Source: a virus. From it: 20,087 bases of DNA. The notes beneath the pieces are model-generated. The model did not search any database. It was not told the DNA's origin and saw nothing but the letters and a program-made list of their open reading frames with translations. Position 1 is the first letter of the stretch; the number at the start of each line of letters is the position of its first letter. Made by a program: the position numbers and the translations under genes. The DNA is taken from positions 1 to 20,087 of IMG/VR virus record IMGVR_UViG_3300033553_000488; one strand, 5' to 3'. Below are positions 2-20,087 of this stretch, piece by piece.

Positions 2-616
2 AGTAACCTGGAAGTGGATGCTGCGGATGAGATCACGTATGACGATCTTCTGCGTATGTCCATTGACCTGGACAACAACCGCACACCGAAGCAAACCAAA
101 GTCATTACCGGTACACGTATGGTCGATACCAAGACCGTTGCGGGCGGCCGCGTTATGTACGTTGGTTCTGAGCTTCAGCCGCTGATCGAAGGCATGGTAG
201 ACCTACACGGTAACCCTGCCTTTATTCCGGTTCACAAGTACGGTGCAGGCGGCACGATCCTGAACGGCGAGATTGGCTCCGTTGGGTACTTCCGCATTGT
301 GGTGGTTCCGGAAATGATGAAGTGGGAAGGTGCCGGCGCTGACGCAACGGCAAACACCACACATTACAAGACCGGTACCAAGTTCGATGTGTTCCCCATG
401 CTGGTTGTGGGCGATGGCGCCTTCTCCACGATTGGTTTCCAGACCGATGGCAAGACTGTGAAGTTCAAGATCACTCACAAGAAGCCGGGTGAGGAAACAG
501 CAGACCGTACCGACCCTTATGGTGAGACAGGTTTCATGTCCATCAAGTGGTACTACGGCTTCCTGCTTGAGCGTGCTGAGCGTATCGCTGTAGCGAAGAC
601 TGCCGCACCTCTGTAA
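2..616 (+). CDS. Major capsid protein, N4 gp56 family (C-terminal part, 5' end outside window)
   Basis: The reading frame is open from the window edge to TAA at 614-616, giving about 204 residues; the family is usually near 400, so roughly the C-terminal half is present. No ATG start is visible and the internal GTG at 14 is not taken as a start. Recognisable family features are the segment around TKVITGTRMVDTKTV, the GGRVMYVGSEL strand, a PAFIPVHKYG segment, the EIGSVGYFRIVVVPEM core and the closing GFMSIKWYYGFLLERAERIAV. The protein forms the icosahedral shell of N4-like podoviruses. It is the first gene of the plus-strand virion operon seen here and is followed by a strong hairpin. The family call rests on remembered family pattern, supported by the N4-like order of everything downstream. 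Confidence 0.9.
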   Translation, partial: SNLEVDAADEITYDDLLRMSIDLDNNRTPKQTKVITGTRMVDTKTVAGGRVMYVGSELQPLIEGMVDLHGNPAFIPVHKYGAGGTILNGEIGSVGYFRIVVVPEMMKWEGAGADATANTTHYKTGTKFDVFPMLVVGDGAFSTIGFQTDGKTVKFKITHKKPGEETADRTDPYGETGFMSIKWYYGFLLERAERIAVAKTAAPL

Positions 617-4640: not shown

Positions 4641-6004
4641 TGGCTAGACCCATCACCTGGCAGACCATTAATGGACGCTCCAACGAAGGGGCTGCCCGGA
4701 TGCTGGAAGGCGCCTCCGATTCCATGGATTCGGGCTTTGACATCTTCAATAAGCTCATCGCCGGTACCGAGCAGGTACAAACCGACAACCGTAATACGAC
4801 GATCAAGAACAACACCCTGGATGCCCGGAGCTTTCTGGCAGGCATTACCGACCCAGAGGAGATGGCACGTGTGCAGGCCTCTGGTGAGTTCCGTGACAGG
4901 GTTGCCGGTTACGGTGGCATGGTTGACCAGGAGGCTCTGCAAGGGGCTGCTGATGAGCGCCTGACAGGCTTGCGTGACATGCAGACCACCAACCGGGCCT
5001 ACGACGACAGTGAGACACGTTTTGGTAACCGGGATGTCCGGGATTCCATGCAGGCCGATCTGGCAGCCGGCCGCTTGAGTGCCTTTGATCAGAAGCTGGT
5101 GAGTAACCCAGGCCTGTTGGATCAGGGTGAGCTGGCTCAGCAACGCGCTGCTGCTGCGGCCCGTATCAAGCAGGAAGGGCAATCTGACGAGCAGTATGAG
5201 CGTAACACCGAGACCTACAACCAGGGCCAGGACGACCGGGCAAAAACAAAGGCCGAAGAAGCCGCCGTGGATATGGGTACAAAGAGACTCAACGAGATTG
5301 TGGCCAAGGCCGATACTGCGTCAGACGCCAGAGCCCAGACCCAGGCATGGCTGCAATCTGAAGAAGCCGCAGGCATTCCCCCACAACAGCGGAACCGGTT
5401 ACAGGCAGACGCTGAACCCCTGTACATACAGAACAATGATTTTACTCAAAACCAGTCGAACCAGCTTGAAGAGGTTAAGGCTACCCAACAGGCCAGGGCT
5501 CAAGAAGTCATTGCCCAACAGGAACTGGAACAGCAGCGGATTGTGGAAGACAACCCGGTTGATCCGCAGTTGGCGTTCACAAGTGAAGACCGCGTTGACA
5601 TCACACAGGCCAAGAAATACGCCGAAGAGCAGGTGGATGATTACTGGACGAAAGGCAACATCGACAGTGCTATGAAGCTGGTTAAAGACAGTCGGAACAT
5701 CTCCGACAGGGACGCTGTGCCCTGGGGCAACCTGATCAAAATGGCGGTAGACGGTGCCAAAGAGCGTGATGTATTTGGCGATGATTACGACCTGGATTCA
5801 GAGCCTATGAACCAGGAATTGATGGACGTTTACGATCGGTGGGTCGAGACCACACAGAACAAAAAGAATGTTCGTGAGGGTGAAGACGCTTTGTTGGGTG
5901 TCCGGAAGACACAGACTGATCAGGTCAGCTACGAAGTTAAGAAGATGCGGGAGGCTTTGAAAGCCGCCAACAAAAATGCACGTTCTTTGAAAGGTGGTAA
6001 GTAA
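4640..6004 (+). CDS. N4 gp51-like internal virion/ejection protein
   Basis: The product is 454 aa, almost entirely predicted helix, rich in Gln, Glu, Ala and Asp, and free of cysteine. The N-terminus (MARPITWQTINGRSNEGA, then a GFDIFNKLIAGT helix and FLAGITDPEEMARVQASGEF) is characteristic of a podovirus internal protein family. Residues about 150-300 are strongly coiled-coil-like, and the C-terminus is basic (KKMREALKAANKNARSLKGGK). The gene overlaps both neighbours by one base (TAATG at 4638-4642 and 6002-6006), which ties its synthesis to that of the giant polymerase. By position it corresponds to N4 gp51 and to the ejection proteins beside vRNAP in phage DEV. It probably helps the polymerase and DNA cross the periplasm; that role is inferred. 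Confidence 0.72.
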   Translation: MARPITWQTINGRSNEGAARMLEGASDSMDSGFDIFNKLIAGTEQVQTDNRNTTIKNNTLDARSFLAGITDPEEMARVQASGEFRDRVAGYGGMVDQEALQGAADERLTGLRDMQTTNRAYDDSETRFGNRDVRDSMQADLAAGRLSAFDQKLVSNPGLLDQGELAQQRAAAAARIKQEGQSDEQYERNTETYNQGQDDRAKTKAEEAAVDMGTKRLNEIVAKADTASDARAQTQAWLQSEEAAGIPPQQRNRLQADAEPLYIQNNDFTQNQSNQLEEVKATQQARAQEVIAQQELEQQRIVEDNPVDPQLAFTSEDRVDITQAKKYAEEQVDDYWTKGNIDSAMKLVKDSRNISDRDAVPWGNLIKMAVDGAKERDVFGDDYDLDSEPMNQELMDVYDRWVETTQNKKNVREGEDALLGVRKTQTDQVSYEVKKMREALKAANKNARSLKGGK

Positions 6005-9000
6005 TGGCGGATCGTCGGTCGATTGTTGATGAACTTCTGGGACGTAATGAACCTACTAAAGAGCAGCAGGTAGAACGTGCGTCTATCTTCAAGAAGCAGG
6101 CGCTGGCCAAGAGATCAGCCGCCAACGATCCTGTTGAAGTGAACCAACCATCGCCGATTGATCCGTACAAACAGGATCCGGCTGCACGGTATAACTCGCT
6201 GGAAGAATTTCGTGCCAACGAGGGCCCTGCGGACATAAACACCATTCGCCGGTTTAACGACCAGGAGAACGCAGGCCTCCGAGACCGTGCCCGGGCAGGG
6301 CAGCGTGAACAGGCGCGCGTCGATGATAAAGCCTGGATGGACACGACGGAGCAGGGCAGTGTTGGTGGTAATGCCAAACAGATTGGCTCGGCACTGGCAC
6401 AAGGGTCTGCAAGACTGTCCGGTGAAGTGTCTGGTTTGCCTTTCAATATGGCCGGTACCCAGTCCATGGTACGGGTGGATGATAAAGCCCGGGAGATCTA
6501 TGGACGTCTGAAGCAGAACGAATTGAAACGTGGAGCCATTGCCCAGAAGCGTAACCAGATCGCGGCTGATGGTATCCGGGGCAAGTTGAGTCCAGAAGAC
6601 GTACAGAACGGTCTGGCTTTGATGGCGGGTGTAGAGCAGTCCATTGAGTCGATCAGTGACGAAGACAGTGCGTATCTGGATCAGGCCGGAAAAGCGGTAA
6701 CCAGCGATCTCAGAAACGGAGGCTCGAACTATTACAAAGACCGTTCCAACCGTGAGTTGATGGACGACGCCTTTGATAACTTCGACACCGCTGAAGGGCT
6801 GAATGCGTTCTTTAATAAGAACGAGTTTATCGACGGTCTGATGAACCCGGTCAACGCCAAAGGTCTGAGTAAGGATCTGGGGGCCAGCTACGACAAGCAC
6901 ACAGGCACATTCAAAGACGCCAAAGCAGCCTATGAAAAGGGTGACACCACCGACGCCGTTATTACCGGGGCCAAAGGTCTGGTCAGTCTGATTGGTGACC
7001 AGATCGGGGATCTGATCAGTAACCCACAGGCCGTGGCGGAACACCTGGCCCAGACAGCGCCGGAACTGGCACTGGGTATGGGCGGTGGTGGCCTCAGTAA
7101 AGCGTTGTTAGGTACCACCAACCTGTCGTATGGCATGGATCTGTACCGCAAATCCCTCGCCGAGTTTGAGAAGCGCGAAGGGCGTATAGCAAACCAGAGC
7201 GAATCCAGTCAGATGCTGGTGGTCAACCTGTCAGCCGCGGTCGCGGATTACGCTATGGACAGCCGGCTGGTCGCACCTTTCCTGAAAGGCAAGGCGGGCC
7301 AAGTAGCCGCGGAAGTCACCAAGGCTCAGGCAGTCACAGGCACACTTAAAGGGGTTCTCAAGAGAACCGGCAGTGCCGCAGGCACCGGTGCGGGTGAATA
7401 CATCACTGAGGGTTACCAGAGTGCTGTGGAAGAAGGTCTGGGCAGTCTGACTACAGACATCGACGGTAAGAACGTGGCCGAGGGTGCAGCCATTGGTCTG
7501 GGTGCCAGTTCACCGATGGGTGTGACCGGTGAACTGGTTGACGCCAAGCGGGATGCTAAGGTCAAGATCCAGAAACAACAGGCCGAGAAGCAGAAGCAAC
7601 AGCAGAAGGTCAACAAGTCCGTTGGGGATATGATCGCGGAAGGCAACATTGAAAAAGTCCTGGATGACGATGTGCTTGCGACTCAGGACGTTGAAGCGGC
7701 CGGTAAAGCCATATTGCAAGTTGCCGGTCATACAGGTGATCGGATTGCCAAAGATAAAGTAGACACCGCCCGGGGAATGCTGGATCGCCTGGATCAGCGT
7801 GCCGACAGTGACATCAAGGATCTCAAGGCGGTCAACGAACGCTTCTCCAAAAAGAACAAGGATAAGTTTACCGGGTTGTTGCAAGGCAAGAAGGAAGCCC
7901 TGCAAGACTACAAGCTCGATGGTAACAAAGACGCTGTTGAGCGGGTAACCGGTGAAATCGCCACTATTGAAAATGAGTTGAAGAAGATCAACGCAGATGA
8001 CCGGGGTAAAGCCAAAGCACGGGACGCACGGATCGCCCGTCTGGGGGACATGCAGCGCAAGATCGCTGAGACCCAGAAGCTGGCCACGGCCAATGTGACC
8101 AATACGCCTGACGCGGGTAAGCGCCTGGTGGTACTGGACGATGCAACCGCAACCCCGGAAGCCCGCAGTACAGCGGCTAAAGAAATGGTCACCCTGGCCA
8201 TGGACAACCCGGACATGCTGGACATTGATACGGCCAAGCGTCTGGCTGATGATCCGACCCTGGACATTCCTGAGAACCAGAGAAGCTACCTACGGGCCCT
8301 GTCCGCGCGTAAGCAGGTTGATACGAACCTCAAGGGCTACAACGAGGTGCGTCAGGATGTCTTTACCGGGGACACGAAGAACGGCTTCCGCAGCTTGCCT
8401 GAGTACCGGACGATGTTCTCCCGGGCCATGAAGACCAATAACCCGGAGCGTGCCGGTGTCCTGATGGATCAACTGGGTAAGTTCCAGACATCCCATGAGC
8501 GTAAGGCCGAAGCCCTGCGTAAAGCCGTGAGCCAAGCCAAAGAGACTGGCAAACAGGTACAGGTCGTCGCCCAGAAGCTCGATGACGGGACGGTGTCCTG
8601 GGAAATTAACGATGGACGCAAACTCAAAGACGCTGATCTGACCAAGAACGGTGGCCTGAACATCAATGCCAAGCTGGGCAAGATGGCTGACACCCTTGCC
8701 AGTATCAAACTGGAAGGTCAGGCCATTACCGCGACTCAGGCAGAACTGCAAGCCATGCAGACACTGTCGCTGGGTGAGTCGCCTGTAGCCCCCGTCACCG
8801 AACAACCGGAGGTTGTTGCAACCCCTGAAGACACTGCATCCCCTGTTGTTACTGAGGAGCCTAGTAGTGGCCAGACTGAAGCCGCGCAAACCCTACCAGA
8901 AACAGCAGAGCAAGCGACGCCAGCAACAACTGAGTCTGCACCAACCGAGCAGGCAAGTATTGATACGTACACCGACGCCGATCGTCTGGCTGTTGAAGTC

Positions 9001-12000
9001 AACGAAGCCGGGGTAGACAGTGATCCGGTGGCTGAGCCAGAGAACGAACCCACCTCTGAGGCTGCTCCGGTAGACGACCGTACTACGGCGTCTGTGGAAT
9101 CAGTCCTGGATGTGGATCGTACTGACGCAGAGCCGGTGGAAGGTCAGCTTCCGCTTGAACGGTTCCAGAGTGAGAACCTCAAACAGGCCTACATCAAGAC
9201 GAAGAAAGGGTTGCCCCTGACCTCGGTGAAGAACTACTTGTCCAATGTCCTGGCCCAGGCGGTGAACAGCCCGGAAAGTCTGGGGGATAAGCTCAGTACC
9301 GATCCAACCGTCAAAGTGGCCCAGCAGAAGTTACTGGCTCGGTTTGTTGAAGAGGCTCAGCGGTGGAACGGTCTGATGGATGGCCTGATGCAACAGGACA
9401 CCAACGCCAAGTTCCAGTACACCAACATGCTCAACTACTACACCGATGGGAACGGTAACCTGGAAGAGAACATCAAGACGGCAATCAGTGCGGCCCTGTT
9501 CTCGTTTGTGCAGGACAACGGTAACGATCTGTGGACGAACACGGACGATGCCATGAAGGCAATCCTGAACATGGACAGTGCAGAGTCACTGGGGATCAAC
9601 GAACGTAATCTGGTTCAGAACATCGGTACCCGGGAAGACAATGTGATTGCCGATCTGGGTATCCGGATCACGCAGGCACTGGGGCAGTCGGCGTATAAAG
9701 ACGCGCCGGCCAATCACATGACGCAAGTAGAAGGGGCGTTTGGTGCCCTTGCCCTGGCGGTCATGCTGGAGGCTGGGGCAGATACCCAGACTCAGGCCCT
9801 GGTTCAACGTAATGGTTTGCAGGACGCGGCATTTGGTCTGGACAAGCGCCAGATCCAGACTGTGAAAGGCAACCCGGCCAAGGGTATCAAGCCAGTGTAC
9901 AAGCAGGCTTACCCCACCCAGTGGTTTGTCCGCAGCAACAAGGTGTTTGATAAAAAGACAGGAGAGTGGGTCAAGAACCCGTACCTGATGGAGCTGTTGG
10001 ACGTCAGTAAAGGCACTCAGGGCTTCCTGAACGGCCTGTTCAGCATCGAAGCCACCACGGCAGACGTTGTGGATACAGCCCCAACTGAGGCACCGCAGAC
10101 CACCAAGCGGACGAAGCAGAAGACCTCGAACGAGCAGCGGGAGATTCTGACCGCGGCCCAGAAGCAGGAACACTTCCCGCGGACAGACATGCTGGAGCCG
10201 GAAACCGGCCTGATGCACAAACTGGGCCGGGACTTCCTGTTACGCATGGAAGGCCACCAGGAGATTGATCTGGAGACGACTCAGGTGAACCTGGTCGAAG
10301 CCCAGCGGGGTAAGAACAACAGTGCTGAGCGTACCGTAGACGGTCTGTTCACCTTTGGTGAAAGCCGGGAAGGTCGTATGGCTCAACCGTTCTTCTTCAA
10401 GCGGTTTGTGGCCAAGCAGCAGCGGGTGCATCTGGATTCCAGAGTGTTCAACCCACAGGAGAACAAACTGCACCGGATCAACTTCACCCAGACTGGGTGG
10501 GAGATGACGGTACCGGTGGACTTCAGTGGTGAGACTGGCTTCCTGTTCAAGCACACCGTGGGCGAGGCCATGGGCTACAAAGTCGGTAACATGACCCCGG
10601 ATCAGGTGCTGACCACGTTTGATGTGATCCAGGCAGACCCCAAGGTGATCTCAGCCCTGGAAGTGCTGGCTGACGTTGATGCCTCAAATAAGGCCATGAC
10701 CGTACAGCAAGAAGCCGATCTGATGGCGGCACTGAAAGAAAAGTCCTGGAGCCTGGATGCCTTATGGCACCTGCACCAGTGGAACAAGGCCCTGGACACT
10801 AACCAGACCACGTTTGTATCCACCTTGCACGCAGAGGGCGATGGTCGATCAAACGGCGCTATGTTCACACTGGCACAGACCGGAACACTGTCTACCGACG
10901 TCGGTGCGGCGGGTGGCTTCTTTACCAAAGAACAGGGGTATGTGGAGTCGTCAGACTGGGCCAGTGAAGCGGGCAATCTCGATCCCTACGAAACCATGGG
11001 CTACAGCGTTGATGCGAAGATGGCCAATGCCGCCCAACACAGCGAAGAAACCCGCCAGATGAACGCATTGGTTCATAACCTGCTGGGTGACTTTGTGGCA
11101 GACGGTGAAGTAACCCCGTCCGGCCGTAATGCGTTCAAGTATCCGTATCTGCGACTGATGTTTGGTGCCGGTAAGAAACGCTCAGCCAGCACCATGGGCG
11201 AAGTGATGATCGAGAAGATGTACGAGAAAGTACAGAAGCTCATGAAAACCAGCCCCAACGACGCCGAGATTGGCGAACAGATTGGTACCTTGTACGACAC
11301 GCTGAACTACTTCCTGGGTAAAGGGCAGCAGATAACGGCTAAGCACACCTATGACGGCGCGCGTCGGTTTACGTTGACCGAAGGCCAGGCCAAACAGTTG
11401 GTGAAAAAGTTCACCGAGCTGGTCGGCCCGCACATTGAGGAAACCATTGATGAACAGTACCAGGACACACTGGATCGTCGGGAGTCCCTGAACGGTGCAG
11501 CGAACCTGTCGTTCAAGTTGTACAAGCTGGTCTACGACTTTGAGAAAGCCAGAATGCTTGCGTCGGTTAAACCGGCGACCCGGGAGCTGGTTGACAAGAA
11601 AGGGAATAAGACGGGAGAAGTCGAGGTACTACAGGACTTGACCAAAGCCCAGGAAGCAGACCTTCAGAAGCGGCTCAAGGCTGTGGCACCCTTGGTGCAT
11701 ACGGCTATGTCCAAAGGTGGGGATCTGGATGCTGGTTTGAAAATGGCCAAGACCAGAACCGTCTCTGGTGCTAATAAAGATGCGGCCCACAGTGGCCGGG
11801 TACGCCTGAACCATACCATCAAGATGTCGTCGGCGGATCTGAACAAGGATCTGATCTCACCACACGCTGCTCCAGACCCGACGGTGGTTAAAGCGATTGA
11901 TTACTCATCCAACACCAAAGAGGAAGTGGAGCCGGGTGTAGCCATGGTGGTCAGTCTGATCCACTCGATGGACAGTGCGGTCATTTCCCGGGTGTACAAG

Positions 12001-15000
12001 ATGTTCAATGTCTTGAACGTCCACGATGCGGCGATTGGTTCACCGGAGCAGTTGGTGAAAGTGATCCAGAAGATGAACCAGGAAACGGTAAACGCGCTGA
12101 TTGACTGGTCACTGTCTGAAGAACTGATGCAGGCCATGTTCCGCACCATGGAAGGCTTTGACGATTACGTAGCCAACCTGCCGGCAGCGGATCGACAGAC
12201 CCTGGATAACTCGCTTCAGGAACTGATGAAGACGTACCAGAAAAAAGACGCGCCTATGCCTACCCGTGACGGGTTGGCCGGCCAGTACCTGAAAGACGCC
12301 GAAGCGGCTGACAGAGATGCCATGCTCTGGCTCAAGCATATCACGCAGGTCAGCCAGTACGGGTACCCGGGATCGTCGTATGCAATGTCGGACACAGACT
12401 ACGCCAAGATTGAGGCGCGTCTGGGTACCACCATTGCCCAACGCATTGAGGCACGCTCAGCCAAGCGTAAAGCGAAGAACCCGGGCAAAGCTGCGGCCGT
12501 GTTACGGGAGTTCCTGGAAGACGCTGAGCAGAAGTTTGAGAACAAGATCCTCAAAGAAAACACGGTGTCTGAACCGGGTAAGCACTACGTCCGCAACCTG
12601 CGCCTGGTGAACAAGATCTATGTCCAGACGGGTTCACTGGATCAGGCCCTGGGCCGTGTGTTCAAAGGTGATGAAAACAAATCCGAACGCGATGCCATGC
12701 GGGACGTGTTGCTCAAGCGTCTGGGACACAGTAACACCCGCCAGAAGAGTCTGACTCATGCACCGGCCGGCCGTGTACTGGGCATGCTGCAAGCGGCTTC
12801 ACAGAGCCCGTATATTGACGCGGCCCTGAAGCCGGTTCTACAGGCGGTTCACAACAACCTGATGACACTGGGTTCTGAGGCCAAAGTGGCTGAGACACCC
12901 ATGGACAAGGTCATGGATACCGCGCTCTGGTTGGGTACCCAGAACGAGAAGCAGTTCAACGACGTCAAAGACCTGTTGACCCGGATGTACAACGGCTACC
13001 AGCAAACCCCATGGGGCACGCTGTCCGGACGTAACAAGCCGGTGACCAATGAACAGGCGCCCTTGCTTGAGGCCTTGCAGGCTAAGCCGCGTATGACGGT
13101 ACGGGAGCTGATCCCAGCCATGCGTCGGGCGTTGTCTGCTATGCCCAAGGATGACAAGCAACGGGCGGTACTCGGCCAGGTACTGGCTCGGGTACTGGAG
13201 CAGGGCAATCTGGATGTGGAAGTTCAGTATGTGACTCAGGAAACACCGATCTCGTTGGCACCGGAGATGCAGAACCCGGGACGTATCCGGGGCATGTGGC
13301 ACCGGGATGCCGGCGGTAAAGAGACCATCTTTATCAAGGGCCCGGATTTCCTGGAGTCCAATGTGACTGTGGAATTGCTGGCTCACGAACTGTTGCACTC
13401 GCTGCTACGGGATACGGTCGCGGCTGAGCTGCACGCCAAGCGGGCCAACCCCAAGCATAACGATCCGGCTGTTTCTCCGCATGTCAGTGAGCTGATGGCA
13501 CTGCGTAAGCAGGCGGCTGAGCTGATCAAAGGCGATCCGGCACTGGAACTGAAGTACCTGAACGCGGTTGAGAACCTCGATGAGCTGATGAGCTGGGGCA
13601 TGACCAACAAAGGCTTCCAGGAAGACGTCCTGAACCAGATTGAAATGAAGTCCCGCAACAGCAAGCGGGGTGTGGTCACAGGTTTGAAAGCCTTCATTGA
13701 GGCGATCACCGGTCTGTTTACCCGTGGCAAGCCGACCGCAGGCCTGGTCTCGGGCGTAGAGATCCTGGTCAGCAATACCGCCGCCTTGATGGAAGCGAGT
13801 AAAGCAGCAGAAACCCGGGTGATTACTGAAACCCTGGCTCAGGCGTCCCCTGATCCTGTTCAGGAGGTAGAGGGCTACACAACCGAGCAAGTCTATAACT
13901 CACTGGAAGGAACGGATACAGGCCGTCCCAGGAACGTGCTGGATAAGATTGTCGAGACCTTGCACGGGCCAGGTGGTGGCGTGAAAGCCTTTGTGGATAA
14001 CCACACAGCACTGTCACCGGAAGATGCGTACCTGGAAGCACTGGCGTCAGACCAGATGCCGTTTGTGACCAAGGCCACCGCAGCCGGTCTGGGACTGACC
14101 GATAAAGAGTTGTTTGTACTGGAGCAAGCCGAGGCCAGTCTGCAAGCGGCGGCGGATCCACGGACTTCGGCCTACCGGGAACTGGTGAAACTGTTCCAGG
14201 CGGCACGCGCCCAGGTAACCCCGGAGATGCTGTTTGCCGGTGACTGGAGTAAGGCTACCCGGGCCGAGAAAGAGAAGGCCCAAAACACGCACGCCTTTAT
14301 CTTCGACATTCAGAAAACCAGTGAAGCCAGCAAATCGGATCACCTGACCCGGTTTGGGGCGTTGGCGTTGGTATACTCCCCGCTGATTGCGGCCATGGAC
14401 TTTGACGCTACCCCGGACAACGAGGCGGTGAGCGACAAGCTGGGCGACCGTATCCAGAGTCTGTTCAACAAGGGGATGCAGCAGTTCTCGGATTACGCCA
14501 ACGGTACCCGGGCCAGCCAGAGTGCCCAGGAACGGATGGACACGGTACTGATCAAACTGGTTCAGACCGAGAAGCGCCGTAAGGTGTCGATCGCCAAGGA
14601 CAAGATCTCGTTGATTGATGAGCTGGAAGAGGCCAACCAGCAAGCCGGTGGTAAGCTCAGAGGCGCGATTGCCAAGGCGTCACGGTCGAAAACAGTACAA
14701 GACTCCAAGAGTTCGACGGTGCGTTTGACCGGTAAGATTGTGGAGATGACCGCAGAAGACCGGTTGCACGAGTTTCTGGACGAGGCAGAGTTGTTCCGCA
14801 GTACGACCTTTCGGGCACGGGAAGACTTTGCAACCAGTATGGTGAACGAAGTACGTGGGCCGGCCGAGGACACCAAACCGTTACTGGATCTGTTGAACGA
14901 GTACGGCAACCAGCAGCGGGAGAAGATGACCCGGATCGGTAACACCAAGCAACACCTGATGGACATGTTCGGGGATGCCGCGAAGTCGTTCAGCAAAACC

Positions 15001-17322
15001 GACAAGCAGAGCCTGACCAAGGTGCTGCTGAAGACAGACATCACTGTTCTGCTGGATCGCTACGGTATTGATGAGGTGACCCAACTGGTCAATGACGATC
15101 CCAAGGTTCGTCGTAAGATCCGTGAGGTAGAGTCTGAGCTGCGTAAAGTCACCAAGGCTGAGGATTACAACTACTACGTAAACCAGGCCGAAGCACTGGG
15201 ACTGCACATAGCCGTCGGTGGGGCGCACTCACCCTGGTTGCAGTTCAACGCCACGCAGATTGCTCAGCAGGCGGGTATGCCCAACGCCCGTAAAGTGACT
15301 CAGGCACAGATTACCAAGGTGCTGCCGTTGATTGACCAACTGGCCAGCTTGCACGCGCTGTCCAATACCGCCAGTGAGTCGCGGAGACTGGCCGGTGACA
15401 TCCTGACAGACCAACTCGCCCGAGGGGATCAGAACGGGGCGGTGTTCATGATCAATGTGCATAAGGATCAAAAGAAGCAGGCCCTGGCCAGTAACTTTGA
15501 AAACGATCCAGCCCTGATGATGAAAGGCTTTATCAAGGAAATCTACGACCCCAAGCGGGAAGTGGAAACCGCCGTTAAGGACAGTGATCGGGCCAAGCGG
15601 TTTGAGAAAATGGGGTATGTGCGTCAGAACGAGCCCCTGAAAAAAGATGTCAGTGATCCTGACAAGGCGTCAGACGAATACCTGTACGTCCTGAAAGACG
15701 GTGGGTTACCGACCTGGGTGACGGGCGCAATCAGTTATGCCGGTATGCGGGCCAAGGGTAATACGGTTCACGGCGGACGTTACAGTGTGTCTATGGATGA
15801 AACCCTGCGGATGAACGAACGCGCCAACCAGCAGATCCTGGTGGATCGCCAGTCGCTCATCCACATGCTGTACCAGCCCAATGCCCTACAGGCGTTCAAG
15901 AACCAGACGTTTATGGCACCGGTTACCAACCAGCGAGGCGAAGCAACCAACTGGCGGTACCTGATGACTGAGCAACACAAAGACGATCTGATGAACCGGG
16001 ACACCACGTTTGATAACGTGATGGGCGCTATGGACGGCGCCATCTATGAAAAGATGACCGCCGCGGTGCAGAACGAGAAAGTCATGCAGGCACTGAAAGA
16101 TCAGTACGATACCGACGATAGCCGCAACTCGGTGCGTTACATTGCCTTTGGGCCGGACGCCGCGGATAAGGACATCCGGGAAATGTACGACCTGCTGCCT
16201 AACAGTACCAAGATGGCCATGCGTAAGATCTGGGGTTCAGATCAGGTCATGGTTCGTAACGACACCCTGAACATGGTGTTCGGGTACCGTCAGTACAGCC
16301 TGGCCGAGATTGCCAACAAAGACGCCGAAGCCCGCAACTACGTTGAAAAGCTCATTGGCTATTTGATGGAGAAAGTCTTTGGGGAAGGTGCAGCCAAGCG
16401 TATCCAGAAGTACCAGGACATCTGGGAAGGCATGGTTCGGGAGCGTAAAGACTTCTACGTGATCAAGAACCTGTGGACTCTGGTGGGTAACGAGCTGAGT
16501 AACGCCAGTATCCTGTTGTGGGAAGGGATCACGCCGAAGAGACTTCTGGAAGACAAGAAAGTGGCGATTGATGGACTACTTCGCTACGACAAAGACTACA
16601 AGGAAAAAATGCGTCTGGAACGGTTGCAGCGGGTCGGGAGTTACACCGGCACCGCCAAGCAACTGGAACAGAAGATCCGGGAGCTGGATCATGCGATCAA
16701 CACTAACCCGGTCAAGCATCTGATCGACGGGGGCCAGTTCCAGACCATCATGGAAGATCTGGATAACGAAGACGATCAGTTCTCTTACAAGTCACGCCTG
16801 ACGGAATGGGTCGATGACAAAACCAAGAAAGTACCCAAGGGTATGATGACCGTAGGGCGTTGGGCCTATATGACTCACGACACCCAGTTGTACAGATTGC
16901 TCCATAAGAGTACGCAGATGAGTGACTTCACTTCCCGGTACTCGCTGTATCAGCACTTGACGACCCGTAAGCTCAATCCGTTGAGTGATGCCGACGCCAT
17001 GTTCAAGATCAAGGAGACGTTCATCAACTACGATGTGGCGACCCACAAAGGTCTGGATTTCATGAACAAGGTGGGCCTGGTGATGTTCACCAAGTATTAC
17101 CTGCGGGCACAGCGGATTCTACTGGGGCTGTACAAAGACAAGCCAGTACGGGCGTTGCTGATGATCCTGTTCTCCCAGTTCTTTGAGAGCGTGACCACGG
17201 TGCAGGACTCTGGTGCCTTGGGACGCATTGGTAACAACCCGTTCGATACCGGGGCCATTGGAATGCCCGGTGCCATTAAGGAAAGTATTGTGATGCAGGC
17301 GATACTCAGCCCGTTCAATTAA
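6004..17322 (+). CDS. Virion-encapsidated RNA polymerase, N4 gp50 type (giant, injected)
   Basis: The 3772-aa product (N4: about 3500) is packaged in the virion and injected with the DNA, where the family transcribes early genes from hairpin promoters. The N-terminal region (1-920) is helical with a Gly/Ala-rich segment (about 446-506) and a Lys/Gln run (about 522-535). An acidic Pro/Thr/Ala linker (about 925-1048) leads to the T7-like core. Core landmarks are R1474 before FNPQENK, motif A D1613 (EGDGRSNG), motif B R1708-K1712-F1720-G1721, the IHSMD signature at 1986-1990 and motif C H2007-D2008. Spacings agree with N4 (R424, D559, R666, K670, Y678, D951). The C-terminal half carries HELLH (2461-2465) and ends in a hydrophobic YYLRAQRILLGLY to ILFSQFFE segment. 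No cysteine occurs anywhere. Start ATG overlaps the previous stop. Confidence 0.93.
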   Translation: MADRRSIVDELLGRNEPTKEQQVERASIFKKQALAKRSAANDPVEVNQPSPIDPYKQDPAARYNSLEEFRANEGPADINTIRRFNDQENAGLRDRARAGQREQARVDDKAWMDTTEQGSVGGNAKQIGSALAQGSARLSGEVSGLPFNMAGTQSMVRVDDKAREIYGRLKQNELKRGAIAQKRNQIAADGIRGKLSPEDVQNGLALMAGVEQSIESISDEDSAYLDQAGKAVTSDLRNGGSNYYKDRSNRELMDDAFDNFDTAEGLNAFFNKNEFIDGLMNPVNAKGLSKDLGASYDKHTGTFKDAKAAYEKGDTTDAVITGAKGLVSLIGDQIGDLISNPQAVAEHLAQTAPELALGMGGGGLSKALLGTTNLSYGMDLYRKSLAEFEKREGRIANQSESSQMLVVNLSAAVADYAMDSRLVAPFLKGKAGQVAAEVTKAQAVTGTLKGVLKRTGSAAGTGAGEYITEGYQSAVEEGLGSLTTDIDGKNVAEGAAIGLGASSPMGVTGELVDAKRDAKVKIQKQQAEKQKQQQKVNKSVGDMIAEGNIEKVLDDDVLATQDVEAAGKAILQVAGHTGDRIAKDKVDTARGMLDRLDQRADSDIKDLKAVNERFSKKNKDKFTGLLQGKKEALQDYKLDGNKDAVERVTGEIATIENELKKINADDRGKAKARDARIARLGDMQRKIAETQKLATANVTNTPDAGKRLVVLDDATATPEARSTAAKEMVTLAMDNPDMLDIDTAKRLADDPTLDIPENQRSYLRALSARKQVDTNLKGYNEVRQDVFTGDTKNGFRSLPEYRTMFSRAMKTNNPERAGVLMDQLGKFQTSHERKAEALRKAVSQAKETGKQVQVVAQKLDDGTVSWEINDGRKLKDADLTKNGGLNINAKLGKMADTLASIKLEGQAITATQAELQAMQTLSLGESPVAPVTEQPEVVATPEDTASPVVTEEPSSGQTEAAQTLPETAEQATPATTESAPTEQASIDTYTDADRLAVEVNEAGVDSDPVAEPENEPTSEAAPVDDRTTASVESVLDVDRTDAEPVEGQLPLERFQSENLKQAYIKTKKGLPLTSVKNYLSNVLAQAVNSPESLGDKLSTDPTVKVAQQKLLARFVEEAQRWNGLMDGLMQQDTNAKFQYTNMLNYYTDGNGNLEENIKTAISAALFSFVQDNGNDLWTNTDDAMKAILNMDSAESLGINERNLVQNIGTREDNVIADLGIRITQALGQSAYKDAPANHMTQVEGAFGALALAVMLEAGADTQTQALVQRNGLQDAAFGLDKRQIQTVKGNPAKGIKPVYKQAYPTQWFVRSNKVFDKKTGEWVKNPYLMELLDVSKGTQGFLNGLFSIEATTADVVDTAPTEAPQTTKRTKQKTSNEQREILTAAQKQEHFPRTDMLEPETGLMHKLGRDFLLRMEGHQEIDLETTQVNLVEAQRGKNNSAERTVDGLFTFGESREGRMAQPFFFKRFVAKQQRVHLDSRVFNPQENKLHRINFTQTGWEMTVPVDFSGETGFLFKHTVGEAMGYKVGNMTPDQVLTTFDVIQADPKVISALEVLADVDASNKAMTVQQEADLMAALKEKSWSLDALWHLHQWNKALDTNQTTFVSTLHAEGDGRSNGAMFTLAQTGTLSTDVGAAGGFFTKEQGYVESSDWASEAGNLDPYETMGYSVDAKMANAAQHSEETRQMNALVHNLLGDFVADGEVTPSGRNAFKYPYLRLMFGAGKKRSASTMGEVMIEKMYEKVQKLMKTSPNDAEIGEQIGTLYDTLNYFLGKGQQITAKHTYDGARRFTLTEGQAKQLVKKFTELVGPHIEETIDEQYQDTLDRRESLNGAANLSFKLYKLVYDFEKARMLASVKPATRELVDKKGNKTGEVEVLQDLTKAQEADLQKRLKAVAPLVHTAMSKGGDLDAGLKMAKTRTVSGANKDAAHSGRVRLNHTIKMSSADLNKDLISPHAAPDPTVVKAIDYSSNTKEEVEPGVAMVVSLIHSMDSAVISRVYKMFNVLNVHDAAIGSPEQLVKVIQKMNQETVNALIDWSLSEELMQAMFRTMEGFDDYVANLPAADRQTLDNSLQELMKTYQKKDAPMPTRDGLAGQYLKDAEAADRDAMLWLKHITQVSQYGYPGSSYAMSDTDYAKIEARLGTTIAQRIEARSAKRKAKNPGKAAAVLREFLEDAEQKFENKILKENTVSEPGKHYVRNLRLVNKIYVQTGSLDQALGRVFKGDENKSERDAMRDVLLKRLGHSNTRQKSLTHAPAGRVLGMLQAASQSPYIDAALKPVLQAVHNNLMTLGSEAKVAETPMDKVMDTALWLGTQNEKQFNDVKDLLTRMYNGYQQTPWGTLSGRNKPVTNEQAPLLEALQAKPRMTVRELIPAMRRALSAMPKDDKQRAVLGQVLARVLEQGNLDVEVQYVTQETPISLAPEMQNPGRIRGMWHRDAGGKETIFIKGPDFLESNVTVELLAHELLHSLLRDTVAAELHAKRANPKHNDPAVSPHVSELMALRKQAAELIKGDPALELKYLNAVENLDELMSWGMTNKGFQEDVLNQIEMKSRNSKRGVVTGLKAFIEAITGLFTRGKPTAGLVSGVEILVSNTAALMEASKAAETRVITETLAQASPDPVQEVEGYTTEQVYNSLEGTDTGRPRNVLDKIVETLHGPGGGVKAFVDNHTALSPEDAYLEALASDQMPFVTKATAAGLGLTDKELFVLEQAEASLQAAADPRTSAYRELVKLFQAARAQVTPEMLFAGDWSKATRAEKEKAQNTHAFIFDIQKTSEASKSDHLTRFGALALVYSPLIAAMDFDATPDNEAVSDKLGDRIQSLFNKGMQQFSDYANGTRASQSAQERMDTVLIKLVQTEKRRKVSIAKDKISLIDELEEANQQAGGKLRGAIAKASRSKTVQDSKSSTVRLTGKIVEMTAEDRLHEFLDEAELFRSTTFRAREDFATSMVNEVRGPAEDTKPLLDLLNEYGNQQREKMTRIGNTKQHLMDMFGDAAKSFSKTDKQSLTKVLLKTDITVLLDRYGIDEVTQLVNDDPKVRRKIREVESELRKVTKAEDYNYYVNQAEALGLHIAVGGAHSPWLQFNATQIAQQAGMPNARKVTQAQITKVLPLIDQLASLHALSNTASESRRLAGDILTDQLARGDQNGAVFMINVHKDQKKQALASNFENDPALMMKGFIKEIYDPKREVETAVKDSDRAKRFEKMGYVRQNEPLKKDVSDPDKASDEYLYVLKDGGLPTWVTGAISYAGMRAKGNTVHGGRYSVSMDETLRMNERANQQILVDRQSLIHMLYQPNALQAFKNQTFMAPVTNQRGEATNWRYLMTEQHKDDLMNRDTTFDNVMGAMDGAIYEKMTAAVQNEKVMQALKDQYDTDDSRNSVRYIAFGPDAADKDIREMYDLLPNSTKMAMRKIWGSDQVMVRNDTLNMVFGYRQYSLAEIANKDAEARNYVEKLIGYLMEKVFGEGAAKRIQKYQDIWEGMVRERKDFYVIKNLWTLVGNELSNASILLWEGITPKRLLEDKKVAIDGLLRYDKDYKEKMRLERLQRVGSYTGTAKQLEQKIRELDHAINTNPVKHLIDGGQFQTIMEDLDNEDDQFSYKSRLTEWVDDKTKKVPKGMMTVGRWAYMTHDTQLYRLLHKSTQMSDFTSRYSLYQHLTTRKLNPLSDADAMFKIKETFINYDVATHKGLDFMNKVGLVMFTKYYLRAQRILLGLYKDKPVRALLMILFSQFFESVTTVQDSGALGRIGNNPFDTGAIGMPGAIKESIVMQAILSPFN
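8776..9150 (+). other. Acidic Pro/Thr/Ala/Glu-rich interdomain linker in the virion RNA polymerase
   Basis: Residues about 925-1049 are dominated by Pro, Glu, Thr, Ala, Val and Asp, with almost no predicted structure. They separate the N-terminal domain from the polymerase core. N4 vRNAP is known to have three separable domains with the mini-polymerase in the middle, so this stretch is a natural domain boundary. The acidic, flexible character would also suit threading through the tail. Confidence 0.75.
10423..12027 (+). other. Catalytic core of the single-subunit RNA polymerase (R1474 to D2008)
   Basis: Codon positions of key residues are: R1474 at 10423, D1613 (motif A) at 10840, R1708 at 11125, K1712 at 11137, F1720 at 11161, H1987 of IHSMD at 11962 and D2008 (motif C) at 12025. 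The two aspartates would hold the catalytic metals, and K1712 and R1708 would contact the incoming nucleotide. The IHSMDSAVISRVY to NVHDAAIGSP block is very close in form to the T7 block FVHSQDGSHLRK to LIHDSFGTI. F1720 sits where T7 has Y639 and N4 has Y678. Confidence 0.9.
13384..13584 (+). other. HExxH zinc-metallopeptidase-like module in the polymerase C-terminal region
   Basis: H2461-E2462-L-L-H2465 follows a hydrophobic VELLA strand, as in zincin active-site helices. A likely third ligand is E2527 in LDELMSWGMTNKGFQ, 62 residues later; an acidic residue followed by a small hydrophobic helix and TNxxFQ is the gluzincin-like pattern I know from large multi-domain phage proteins. The upstream TIFIKGPDFLESNVT could be the edge strand. 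Peptidase activity is an inference; the metal-binding residues are all present. Confidence 0.6.
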
Positions 17323-17805: not shown

Positions 17806-17991
17806 TTACTCGTCTTTCTTGTTTCGGGCGGATTCCCACAACAGGTAATAAACCAGTGTGAAAATACCCGCCACCGCAAGAAGGACGGTCACTATAGCGG
17901 ACACCACGGAGAACACAAATCCTCCGAACAGTGCCAGACCGGTGACCAGTGCCGCAACAAACGCCAGCCCAAGTGCTTTTAGAAAGGCCAT
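17806..17991 (-). CDS. Small two-helix membrane protein, holin-like
   Basis: This is a 61-aa protein with a very strong Shine-Dalgarno sequence (AGGAGG, 4 nt before the ATG). Two hydrophobic helices are visible, about residues 5-29 and 31-52, divided by a short FSVVS turn, with a basic/acidic cytoplasmic-type tail (ESARNKKDE). Size, two transmembrane segments and charged end fit a class II holin, but the same form occurs in many unrelated phage membrane peptides. No endolysin or spanin is next to it in this window, though a secreted protein follows. It is the last gene before the minus-strand terminator. Confidence 0.65.
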   Translation of the reverse strand: MAFLKALGLAFVAALVTGLALFGGFVFSVVSAIVTVLLAVAGIFTLVYYLLWESARNKKDE

Positions 17992-18002: not shown

Positions 18003-18410
18003 TCAGCCGAATAGGCTCTTACTGCTTGGTGCGGTTTCGGTCTTTGTGGGTGCTTCCACAGCGTCATTGGCTGAGGCTTCTTGCGTGTCCGGTGTGAAAG
18101 GAGGCTCAGTCGTGGCTGGCTCAGGTTCCGTGGCTTCCGGCTCTGCCTTGACAACCGCTTTGGGCTTGGCCCGTGGCTTGGTTTGGGGTGCTTCTACTTC
18201 TGGAACCGCTTCTGCGACGGGCTCAGGTGTCTCAGCCACCGGTGCGACCGAGACTTCGGAGACCTGAACGTCGGCTGACAGGGCGAAGCCGCCTCTACGA
18301 GAGACGGCAAAGTTGATGGCGCGTACCGGTGTCGTGATGCCTTTGGAGGCTACGTAGTCACGGATGGCCTGTTCGATGTCGTCCTGGTTAATACTGAGTT
18401 TCATTTCCAT
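18003..18410 (-). CDS. Phage protein of unknown function, small N-terminal domain and long disordered tail
   Basis: The product is 135 aa from ATG 18410 (AAGGA 7 nt upstream; a second ATG two codons later is less well spaced). Residues 1-50 (LSINQDDIEQAIRDYVASKGI, then AINFAVSRRGGFALSADVQV) look like a compact helix-plus-strands domain that I have seen in other phage small proteins. Residues about 51-130 are Ala/Pro/Glu/Val/Thr/Lys-rich and probably disordered. The extreme C-terminus, SSKSLFG, is nearly the same as the KSSLFS end of the protein encoded at 19745-20087. The shared tip suggests binding to a common partner. Function is unknown. Confidence 0.68.
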   Translation of the reverse strand: MEMKLSINQDDIEQAIRDYVASKGITTPVRAINFAVSRRGGFALSADVQVSEVSVAPVAETPEPVAEAVPEVEAPQTKPRAKPKAVVKAEPEATEPEPATTEPPFTPDTQEASANDAVEAPTKTETAPSSKSLFG

Positions 18411-18434
18411 GGGTGTTTCCTTATTGGTTTAGTG

Positions 18435-18929
18435 TTATGCCACTTGGGCAATGGATTGGTGATACTTGTGGAGGCCGTAGAGCCCGATGAACAGGGCATC
18501 TGCAATGGCCTGGCCCTTGGCCTTCTTATCCAGAATACGCAGGTCAGGGAAGAGCTGAGTGGCCTTGGATCGAGCAATGTCCTTGTCAGTCCCCAACAGG
18601 TTGGTGTGTTTCTTCCAGGCCTGTGGGGTGACCAGGGTCAGGGGAATGCTCTGGCCAACGATGATGCCCTGAACGATCCCCGCCGAATGCCCAAACGAGA
18701 AGGCCCGTGAGGCCCCGTCGGTTGGCATACTGTGGACGTTCTCCACGTAGGCATGGGACAGTCCGGGCCAATCACGGAGCCAGGCAGCAATGGCGGCACC
18801 GTTGACACGGTTCTTACTGCCGATCTTTATGCTGGGCATAAAGAGGTGATCGACGTACTTACCCTGTTCATTGATGATGACCATGGAGCCTGTTAGCCCC
18901 GGATCGACGGCCAGAAAGCCTTTGCTCAT
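18435..18929 (-). CDS. RuvC-like Holliday junction resolvase
   Basis: This 164-aa protein has an RNase H-like fold signature. D9 in LAVDPGLTGSM is the first catalytic acid, E63 in HAYVENVHSMP the second, and D144 in AIADALFIGLYG the last. PQAWKK (about 102-107) and the SFGHSAGIVQGI helix (78-89) are usual in phage and bacterial RuvC proteins. The acid three residues before the last one in cellular RuvC (D138 in E. coli) is Ala here (A141), so the metal site may be altered. Such nucleases resolve branched DNA during replication or before packaging. Its start overlaps the previous stop (ATGA at 18926-18929), giving coupled translation. Confidence 0.85.
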   Translation of the reverse strand: MSKGFLAVDPGLTGSMVIINEQGKYVDHLFMPSIKIGSKNRVNGAAIAAWLRDWPGLSHAYVENVHSMPTDGASRAFSFGHSAGIVQGIIVGQSIPLTLVTPQAWKKHTNLLGTDKDIARSKATQLFPDLRILDKKAKGQAIADALFIGLYGLHKYHQSIAQVA

Positions 18930-19192
18930 GAGAGTTTACTCTTGCCCGGGCTCCCCGGACTGACGGTTCCCGGTGGGATTTCCAGATAGCCTTCTTCAAA
19001 GACGGCCTTGGGCGACCAGGAATGGTGCTCATCCTGGGTACCCCGGTTGTAAATCACATGGTAGCCGTTGGCCAGGGGATCCATGCTGCCGACATCCCGC
19101 ATCTTTTTGATGCTGGTTGTGAAGGCACCAAAGGTCATGGGCTCGGCATGGACTTGCTTGATGCACTGGTAGAACTTGAGGCGATTACTCAT
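18926..19192 (-). CDS. Small phage protein with SWSP motif
   Basis: The product is 88 aa from the ATG at 19192. An AAGGAG sits 10 nt upstream inside the preceding gene, and the start overlaps that gene's stop (ATGAGTAA). A longer in-frame start at 19270 would run through the 55-aa gene and is not preferred. Residues 18-31 (EPMTFGAFTTSIKK), 43-50 (GYHVIYNR) and 57-69 (HSWSPKAVFEEGY) form a pattern often found in short phage proteins, where Y-x-V-x-Y is followed by SWSPxxxFEExY. These usually lie near genes of the gp49/gp66 family, as here. Function is unknown. The C-terminal SPGSPGKSKLS is a flexible basic tail. Confidence 0.72.
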   Translation of the reverse strand: MSNRLKFYQCIKQVHAEPMTFGAFTTSIKKMRDVGSMDPLANGYHVIYNRGTQDEHHSWSPKAVFEEGYLEIPPGTVSPGSPGKSKLS

Positions 19193-19352
19193 TGAACATC
19201 CACTCCTTGAGGGCGCTTTTGGCATCCTGTCTGGAGAGATCGAACTCAAACTCCAGCGTAGGTGCCGCACCCATCATATTCATGGTTCCGGTATCACGAA
19301 GCTCTTCCAGAAATTTTTCCATTTCATCGGTCAGAATACGACGTTCGCTCAT
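19185..19352 (-). CDS. 55-aa phage protein with N-M-M-G-A-A-P motif
   Basis: This short gene is read from ATG 19352 to TAA 19185-19187. It overlaps the previous gene's stop by ATGA and the next gene's start by 8 nt, which strongly supports it being real. The peptide has an acidic N-terminal helix (DEMEKFLEELRDTG), then TMNMMGAAPTLEFEFDLSRQDAKSALKEWM in two adjoining parts. The order F-L-x-x-L-R-x-x-G, N-M-x-G-A-x-P, then a helix ending in EWM recurs in small proteins of many tailed phages. Function is unknown; a helix-turn-helix-like shape is possible. Confidence 0.75.
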   Translation of the reverse strand: MSERRILTDEMEKFLEELRDTGTMNMMGAAPTLEFEFDLSRQDAKSALKEWMFNE

Positions 19353-19684
19353 GAGATGGGTGGCTCCTCGTTCAGTTGCATGAACAGCCGGTAGCCTTCC
19401 AGTCCCCAGAGCTTTTCAGCGGCCTGGTTTGTGGCATTACGTCTGGCAATGTCTTCGCCCATGGCTGCATCGAAGTTGTCCACTGACACACAGGCACTGT
19501 GACCAGACGTGAGGTAAAACCGCCCGTCCAGATACGCGTGACAGAAGGTACTGGTCGTACCCATCGGCTGCTCAAACTGGTAGAACACACGGTTTTTCAG
19601 AGCCTGGATGTGGGCAACGGTGATCCGGGGAGCGGTCAGACCTCTCTCCTGGATCTGGTCTTCAATCGCTTGGTCGTTTGACAT
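19349..19684 (-). CDS. N4 gp49 / Sf6 gp66 family protein
   Basis: The product is 111 aa from ATG 19684, with GAGAG upstream. Residues 46-103 match the family pattern: TFCHAYLDGRFYLTSGHSAC, then VSVDNFDAAMGEDIARRNA and KLWGLEGYRLFMQL. This is a small domain of unknown function widespread in tailed phages. In N4 the gene precedes the convergent junction with the virion polymerase gene; here it is five genes further away, so the region has extra cargo. It starts 61 nt after the stop of the probable ssDNA-binding protein, across a hairpin region, and overlaps the next gene by ATGA. Function is unknown. Confidence 0.85.
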   Translation of the reverse strand: MSNDQAIEDQIQERGLTAPRITVAHIQALKNRVFYQFEQPMGTTSTFCHAYLDGRFYLTSGHSACVSVDNFDAAMGEDIARRNATNQAAEKLWGLEGYRLFMQLNEEPPIS

Positions 19685-19710
19685 AACACTCTCTTTAACG
19701 ATAAATGTCA

Positions 19711-19739
19711 GGGGCCGGCACGCGGCCCCCGGAGGGGCC
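19711..19739 (-). promoter_or_regulatory. Two overlapping, mutually exclusive GC hairpins (attenuator-like)
   Basis: On the minus strand GGCCCC-TCCG-GGGGCC (19739-19724) forms a 6-bp stem with a C(UNCG)G tetraloop. The second arm of this stem is also the first arm of GGGGCCG-CGTGC-CGGCCCC (19729-19711), a perfect 7-bp stem. The two cannot form together. No U-tract follows, so simple termination is unlikely; message processing, 3' end protection or attenuation between the ssDNA-binding-like gene and the gp49-like gene are possible. Confidence 0.55.
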
Positions 19740-19744
19740 TGTGC

Positions 19745-20087
19745 TTAGCTGAACAGGCTGGACTTGGGCTTGGCACCACCGGCTGCAGCAGCCTTGGGAG
19801 CGCCCTGAGACGCACCGTTGGCATCGTTGGCTGCCGCAACCCGGTTACGGGTCTGGCCAGTCCACTTCTTGTCCCAGGTGTTGTAGAACGCAGGTTCTTC
19901 AGCACTGGCACGTACCTCAGCGGTCGTGAGCTTGTCACGCTCACGGAAGATCTTGTCGATCTCGTTGACTTCACGGGACTCACCGGTTGGCTGGTAAGAG
20001 CCGTCGTCCGCCTTCTGGCGCTTGTCAACGACCTGCTTCTGCAGACCCACGATGATGCGCTGGCCAACCAGATCGGTAACCATATCC
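19745..20087 (-). CDS. Probable ssDNA-binding protein, N4 gp45 position (C-terminal part)
   Basis: About 114 C-terminal residues are visible and the frame continues past the window edge; the ATG at 20083 is unlikely to be the true start because no ribosome site can be seen and N4 SSB is about 265 aa. Visible features are LVGQRIIVGLQKQVVDKRQ, an EVNEIDKIFRERDKLTTAEV segment, PAFYNTWDKKWTGQTRNR, and an Ala/Gly-rich flexible tail ending in KPKSSLFS. A globular domain followed by a flexible tail with a conserved tip is usual for phage single-stranded-DNA-binding proteins. N4 SSB also activates late transcription through its C-terminus, where a lysine is essential; the lysines in the final 10 residues here fit that. 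Assignment is by form and gene order and is not certain. Confidence 0.5.
   Translation of the reverse strand, partial: DMVTDLVGQRIIVGLQKQVVDKRQKADDGSYQPTGESREVNEIDKIFRERDKLTTAEVRASAEEPAFYNTWDKKWTGQTRNRVAAANDANGASQGAPKAAAAGGAKPKSSLFS

Follow-up and report, generated by a model that had tools for sequence, protein, structure and literature searches.

SSBs usually recruit their partners by means of a flexible arm that ends in a short hydrophobic tip. In phage T4, gp43, gp55 and gp33 have common clamp-binding C-termini, so that several phage proteins reach a single hub through the same C-terminal docking peptide. For phage N4, it has been reported that the SSB (gp45) contacts the conserved C-terminus of the beta' subunit of host RNA polymerase (RNAP) and that S260, K264 and K265 are part or all of its RNAP-activating region (PMC2784036, PMC4496689). 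S260 is the Ser of a Ser-Leu-Phe (SLF) stretch spanning S260 to F262. The published accounts cited here treat the SSB, with no second tip-bearing protein, and gp47, encoded nearby, is uncharacterised and is missing from the N4-like core genes that have been listed in print (PMC4193335). A search of the literature found no title or abstract describing a tip common to SSB and gp47.

An N4-like locus with two SLF-tipped proteins

The DNA considered here, a virus record of 20,087 bases (the window, meaning this whole stretch), is a fragment of an N4-like (Schitoviridae) phage (Table 1). The plus strand encodes the end of the major head protein and virion proteins. Transcription of the minus strand passes from an SSB fragment through genes for a protein of the N4 gp49 type, a resolvase resembling RuvC and a 135-aa protein to a gene for a protein of 61 aa. 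In N4, the genes for SSB (gp45), gp46 and gp47 come in this order too and likewise face the vRNAP gene. The resolvase gene (57 relatives found) lies downstream of the SSB gene and 24 bases upstream of that for the 135-aa protein, and gp46 of the N4 relative Escherichia phage AlfredRasser is annotated as RuvC-like. Between SSB and resolvase sits the gene of the N4 gp49/Sf6 gene 66 family, and at a position equivalent to that of the 61-aa protein, phage DS-1410Ws-06 encodes a hydrophobic protein of 75 aa (L153:5226-5450).

Table 1. Features of the window, with coordinates in the numbering of the record
Feature	Position	Strand	Evidence or remark
Major head protein, end of gene	2-616	+	
3,772-aa protein	6004-17322	+	vRNAP position; vRNAP_dom_2 match sub-threshold
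61-aa hydrophobic protein, probably membrane	17806-17991	-	between gp47 and vRNAP gene
135-aa protein, N4 gp47 family	18003..18410	-	ORF; head HMM E=3e-19; phrog_7564 E=7.9e-10
gp47 C-terminal tip SKSLFG	18006..18023	-	sequence; conserved, covaries with SSB tip
Acidic-PPF motif TEPPFTPD, internal in gp47 tail	18087..18110	-	motif scan
gp47 head, aa 1-53, predicted beta-alpha-beta-beta	18252..18410	-	AlphaFold2 pLDDT ~81-92, residues 1-50
RuvC-like Holliday junction resolvase, N4 gp46 position	18435..18929	-	phrog_1770 E=1.8e-34
N4 gp49/Sf6 gene 66 family protein	19349-19684	-	PF13876 E=1.6e-13
SSB (N4 gp45 family), C-terminal 113 aa	19745..20086	-	ORF; phrog_743 E=4.9e-30
SSB C-terminal tip KSSLFS	19748..19765	-	sequence; tip on 54/56 non-redundant pairs

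The SSB is cut by the window end at 20086, its N-terminus lying beyond; it matches our own SSB profile with E=5e-49 and ends in GGAKPKSSLFS (stop at 19745-19747). It belongs to the same family as N4 gp45 (phrog_743) and has the same S-L-F tip, including the Ser, but no lysine follows the Phe, K264 and K265 being missing. The 135-aa protein ends in TAPSSKSLFG (stop at 18003-18005). An earlier note on this DNA had pointed to two minus-strand proteins sharing an SLF tip at the end of Ala/Pro-rich tails; both open reading frames, both tips and the composition of both tails are borne out, the tail of the 135-aa protein being strongly acidic as well.

Most of the SSB core falls outside the window. 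For the SSB of a relative (L005), AlphaFold2 gave a confident core and a disordered tail, and the best match in the PDB was PrgE of plasmid pCF10 (E=1.4e-4, with a low TM-score), bacterial SSBs ranking after it with weaker E-values.

The gp47 family

The 135-aa protein belongs with N4 gp47 and with PHROGs 7564, 7641, 18842 and 20916. Its head aligns with those of N4 gp47 and PYDG_00078 of Pseudoalteromonas phage pYD6-A, and fits the family pattern MQIxLxQxEIExAxxxYV...GR...GLxAxV. A direct scan with the 135-aa sequence found no relatives, and family members were instead reached via the SSB and the resolvase. A profile of the head recovers the 135-aa protein and relatives across the family; its seeds include the window protein, so that E-values for seeds are not independent, and many of its matches are to non-seed sequences.

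The window member consists of a small head, a tail rich in acidic residues, Pro and Ala that is predicted by AlphaFold2 to be disordered, and the SLF tip. Within the head, the program assigns one helix and two strands, the first strand being our own reading. No significant fold match to the head model was found in the PDB. A weak sequence resemblance of the head to ribosome-associated inhibitor A/YfiA (E=0.018) was not relied on.

Conservation of the tip, and its restriction to two genes

The tip proved to be conserved in relatives, contrary to the outcome that the earlier note had named as refuting its idea. Of the SSBs encoded at 110 loci, nearly all have SLF at or close to their end, and among 56 non-redundant genome pairs an SLF-type tip is present in 54 SSBs and 52 gp47 proteins. 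The typical motif is x-x-S-L-F-[GAS], preceded by Lys, Thr or Ser, at or near the end of the disordered tail; in gp47 the tip is kept, but not the sequence of the tail that joins it to the head. The four gp47 exceptions are N4, L132, FBKp27 and Presley. In L132 the called open reading frame has no tip, and in FBKp27 and Presley a changed gp47 tip is matched by a changed SSB tip. Annotated N4 gp47 lacks the tip because, in a stretch rich in A, it shifts out of the frame used by its relatives. AlfredRasser holds an intact copy, and it is from this that the frame of N4 gp47 (L066:31678-32112) diverges near the end, leaving the SLF stretch out of frame.

In pYD6-A and in four near-complete contigs, a search for further tip-bearing proteins found the tip on no genuine gene but those for SSB and gp47. 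In pYD6-A, S[LIM]F followed by at most nine residues is terminal in 2 of 98 coding sequences, those for the SSB and the homologue of the 135-aa protein (one further coding sequence ends in AIFSGK, which has no Ser before the hydrophobic residue); in the four contigs it occurs on six of 321 mechanically called genes, all of them SSB or gp47. Among N4 gp1 to gp52, it is found on gp45 only.

Within one genome the two tips are encoded by different synonymous codons, which speaks for selection on the tip peptide and against the tail having been copied recently, whether by DNA duplication or by gene conversion. Some gp47 proteins have the tip at an internal position, and several have more than one (repeats were read directly from the sequences), so a requirement for a free C-terminal carboxylate is also disfavoured.

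The two tips change together

Not only is the tip kept in both proteins, but its variants are matched within genomes. For the 22 genomes with SSB cores less than 50% identical, the similarity of own-genome tips is 16.3, compared with 10.6 (SD 1.1) for shuffled pairs, and own-genome pairing still exceeds shuffled pairing (p=0.007) at SSB identities below 45% and with two odd genomes removed. Own-genome tips were more alike than shuffled pairs at every redundancy level tested; since the genomes are related, the shuffle overstates independence, which the <50% and <45% sets reduce but do not remove. A basic residue after the Phe tends to be present in both proteins or in neither (10/1/1/10; Fisher 3e-4). 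Unusual tips are matched in individual pairs: PLF occurs in both proteins of L121, SLFAKPQS is common to both tips of L129, and further SSB/gp47 pairs are KKKSSLFDD/KKKSSIFDVD, PTKSLFAK/PTKSLFARN and KPLFT/EPLFG. The odd tips, although few, follow the same rule. In FBKp27 they are DDPFTL (SSB) and EDDPFANFD (gp47), and in Presley KRQFFKR (SSB) and KRTFGxxK repeats of the TFGKK type (gp47), basic-Phe-basic in both.

The sequences compared show that SSB and gp47 of Schitoviridae bear one short linear motif, kept and altered in concert. The common docking site suggested by the earlier note is therefore well supported, by family-wide conservation and by covariation, and SSB and gp47 probably have a docking partner in common. 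The arrangement would resemble that of bacterial SSBs in having a disordered tail that ends in a short partner-recruiting peptide. Whereas the bacterial tip (DDDIPF) is acidic, however, the phage tips are basic or polar residues plus SLF and need not be terminal, and in the phages a second protein also bears the tip. Neither KSSLFS nor SKSLFG in the window is an acidic tip ending in PF. FBKp27 is the only case with a DDPF-like tip resembling that of bacterial SSBs; here DDPF lies near the end of both proteins (L156:3474-4214 and 5109-5789).

Association of gp47 with Holliday junction resolvases

The distance between a resolvase gene and the start of gp47 is a few dozen bases at most in nearly all loci, and the resolvases concerned are of two unrelated types, RuvC and RusA. 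None was found at loci L091, L119 and L136, and at L096 and L116 a resolvase is present at a greater distance. In phages RHph_I1_6, ZC08, RG-2014, DS-1410Ws-06 and 12VC501 the two are fused (PHROGs 1682, 14238, 21721 and 33948), with a RusA domain followed by the gp47 head and tip, unlike the window, where the resolvase is RuvC-like and separate. Either gp47 or a counterpart with an SLF tip follows the SSB at all 37 loci having at least 4.5 kb downstream: 34 are of the gp47 family, L125 has a broken head, and L140 (with L141, the same phage by its SSB) has an unrelated head. The L140 protein (L140:7267-7740) lies directly after a RuvC-like gene, in the place of gp47, and ends in KSLFS; thus the tip and the resolvase-adjacent place outlast the head.

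What might the tips bind?

It is this linkage, together with the RusA fusions, that leads us to propose that gp47 targets the resolvase. In the reading that we prefer, to which we would give about an even chance, gp47 is a predicted targeting adaptor for the adjacent or fused resolvase, acting through the docking motif that it has in common with SSB. The SLF motif would be a docking peptide for one partner of both proteins, and gp47 would have its head and the resolvase at one end, then a flexible acidic arm and, at the other end, one to several SSB-type tips. By using the same docking site as SSB, it may bring the resolvase to that site on replicating and recombining phage DNA; alternatively, within the same scheme, it may compete with SSB for the site. 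The earlier note had cast the 135-aa protein as a competitor or second hub. Competition survives as an option, but that proposal misses the strongest clue, the adjacency or fusion to a resolvase. Gene adjacency can, on the other hand, reflect operon history only, and neither the SSB nor the gp47 tip docks confidently in AlphaFold2 models.

Candidates for the partner are the beta' subunit of host RNAP or a phage protein. Since the tip is part of the published activating region of N4 SSB, RNAP is a real candidate, and it may conceivably be the common partner, with gp47 competing with or assisting SSB at the C-terminus of beta' to tune the switch to late transcription. The N4 data on S260, K264 and K265 and on contact with beta' suit this, as does the presence of basic residues after the tip in N4-type gp47 (SLFAGLKR in AlfredRasser), residues that co-occur in the two proteins. 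The host RNAP guess of the earlier note thus fits what is published for N4, but we consider it rather doubtful that RNAP is what both tips bind. The two lysines are missing from both tips in the window (and in most contig phages), and the tips of two Klebsiella phages, KP8 and FBKp27, differ, where a conserved target in the host ought to be almost the same, so that the case for RNAP falls short of proof; furthermore, RusA fusions have no obvious role in transcription. The divergent but matched tips of FBKp27 and Presley suggest that the partner and the phage evolve together; it could be a protein of replication or recombination, or else the SSB core itself. If the tip docked on the SSB core, it would mediate cooperative SSB-SSB binding, and gp47 would bind SSB-coated DNA and bring the resolvase there. 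One co-evolving phage partner would explain the matched tips, the repeated tips of some gp47 proteins would suit a multimeric SSB filament, and the SSBs of FBKp27 and Presley, where the odd tips occur, are among the most divergent. In the SSB model, moreover, pLDDT is below 50 over residues 222-243 but not for the last four residues; this rise is small, however. Docking on the core would also leave the RNAP-activating role of S260 unexplained, and on balance we think it unlikely.

Two other explanations carry much less weight. The bacterial sliding-clamp-binding consensus is of the Q-L-[SD]-L-F type, and S-L-F fits its last three positions, so that the tip might take both proteins to the host clamp. 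However, Lys and Thr dominate four positions before the Phe (Lys or Ser in the window), the consensus Gln does not figure among the frequent residues there, and neither DDPF of FBKp27 nor the FF and TFG tips of Presley fit. This motif was rejected, and a clamp-directed role seems very improbable; the tips differ from those of T4 in lacking the bacterial consensus Gln and in having a hub that is as yet putative. That two low-complexity, Ala/Pro-rich tails should end alike in a short motif by chance or composition is scarcely credible in view of the family-wide conservation, the restriction to SSB and gp47 genes, and the covariation, and was likewise rejected.

More speculatively, and with little confidence, one could imagine SSB and the resolvase adaptor competing, across Schitoviridae, for one hub through a shared and co-evolving tip code. 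A single docking site would then couple replication with the late transcription carried out by host RNAP and with the resolution of recombination intermediates. The gp47 family, for its part, gains a testable function, and its tip offers a second probe of the docking site behind the activation of host RNAP by N4 SSB. The two proteins are a clear natural example of one linear motif held in step on two phage proteins, and FBKp27 and Presley are in effect natural tip-swapped pairs, ready-made for tests of specificity.

Finally, we draw attention to a second motif, acidic-[PA]PF-x-x-D, which recurs in the gp47 tails of about a dozen distinct relatives.
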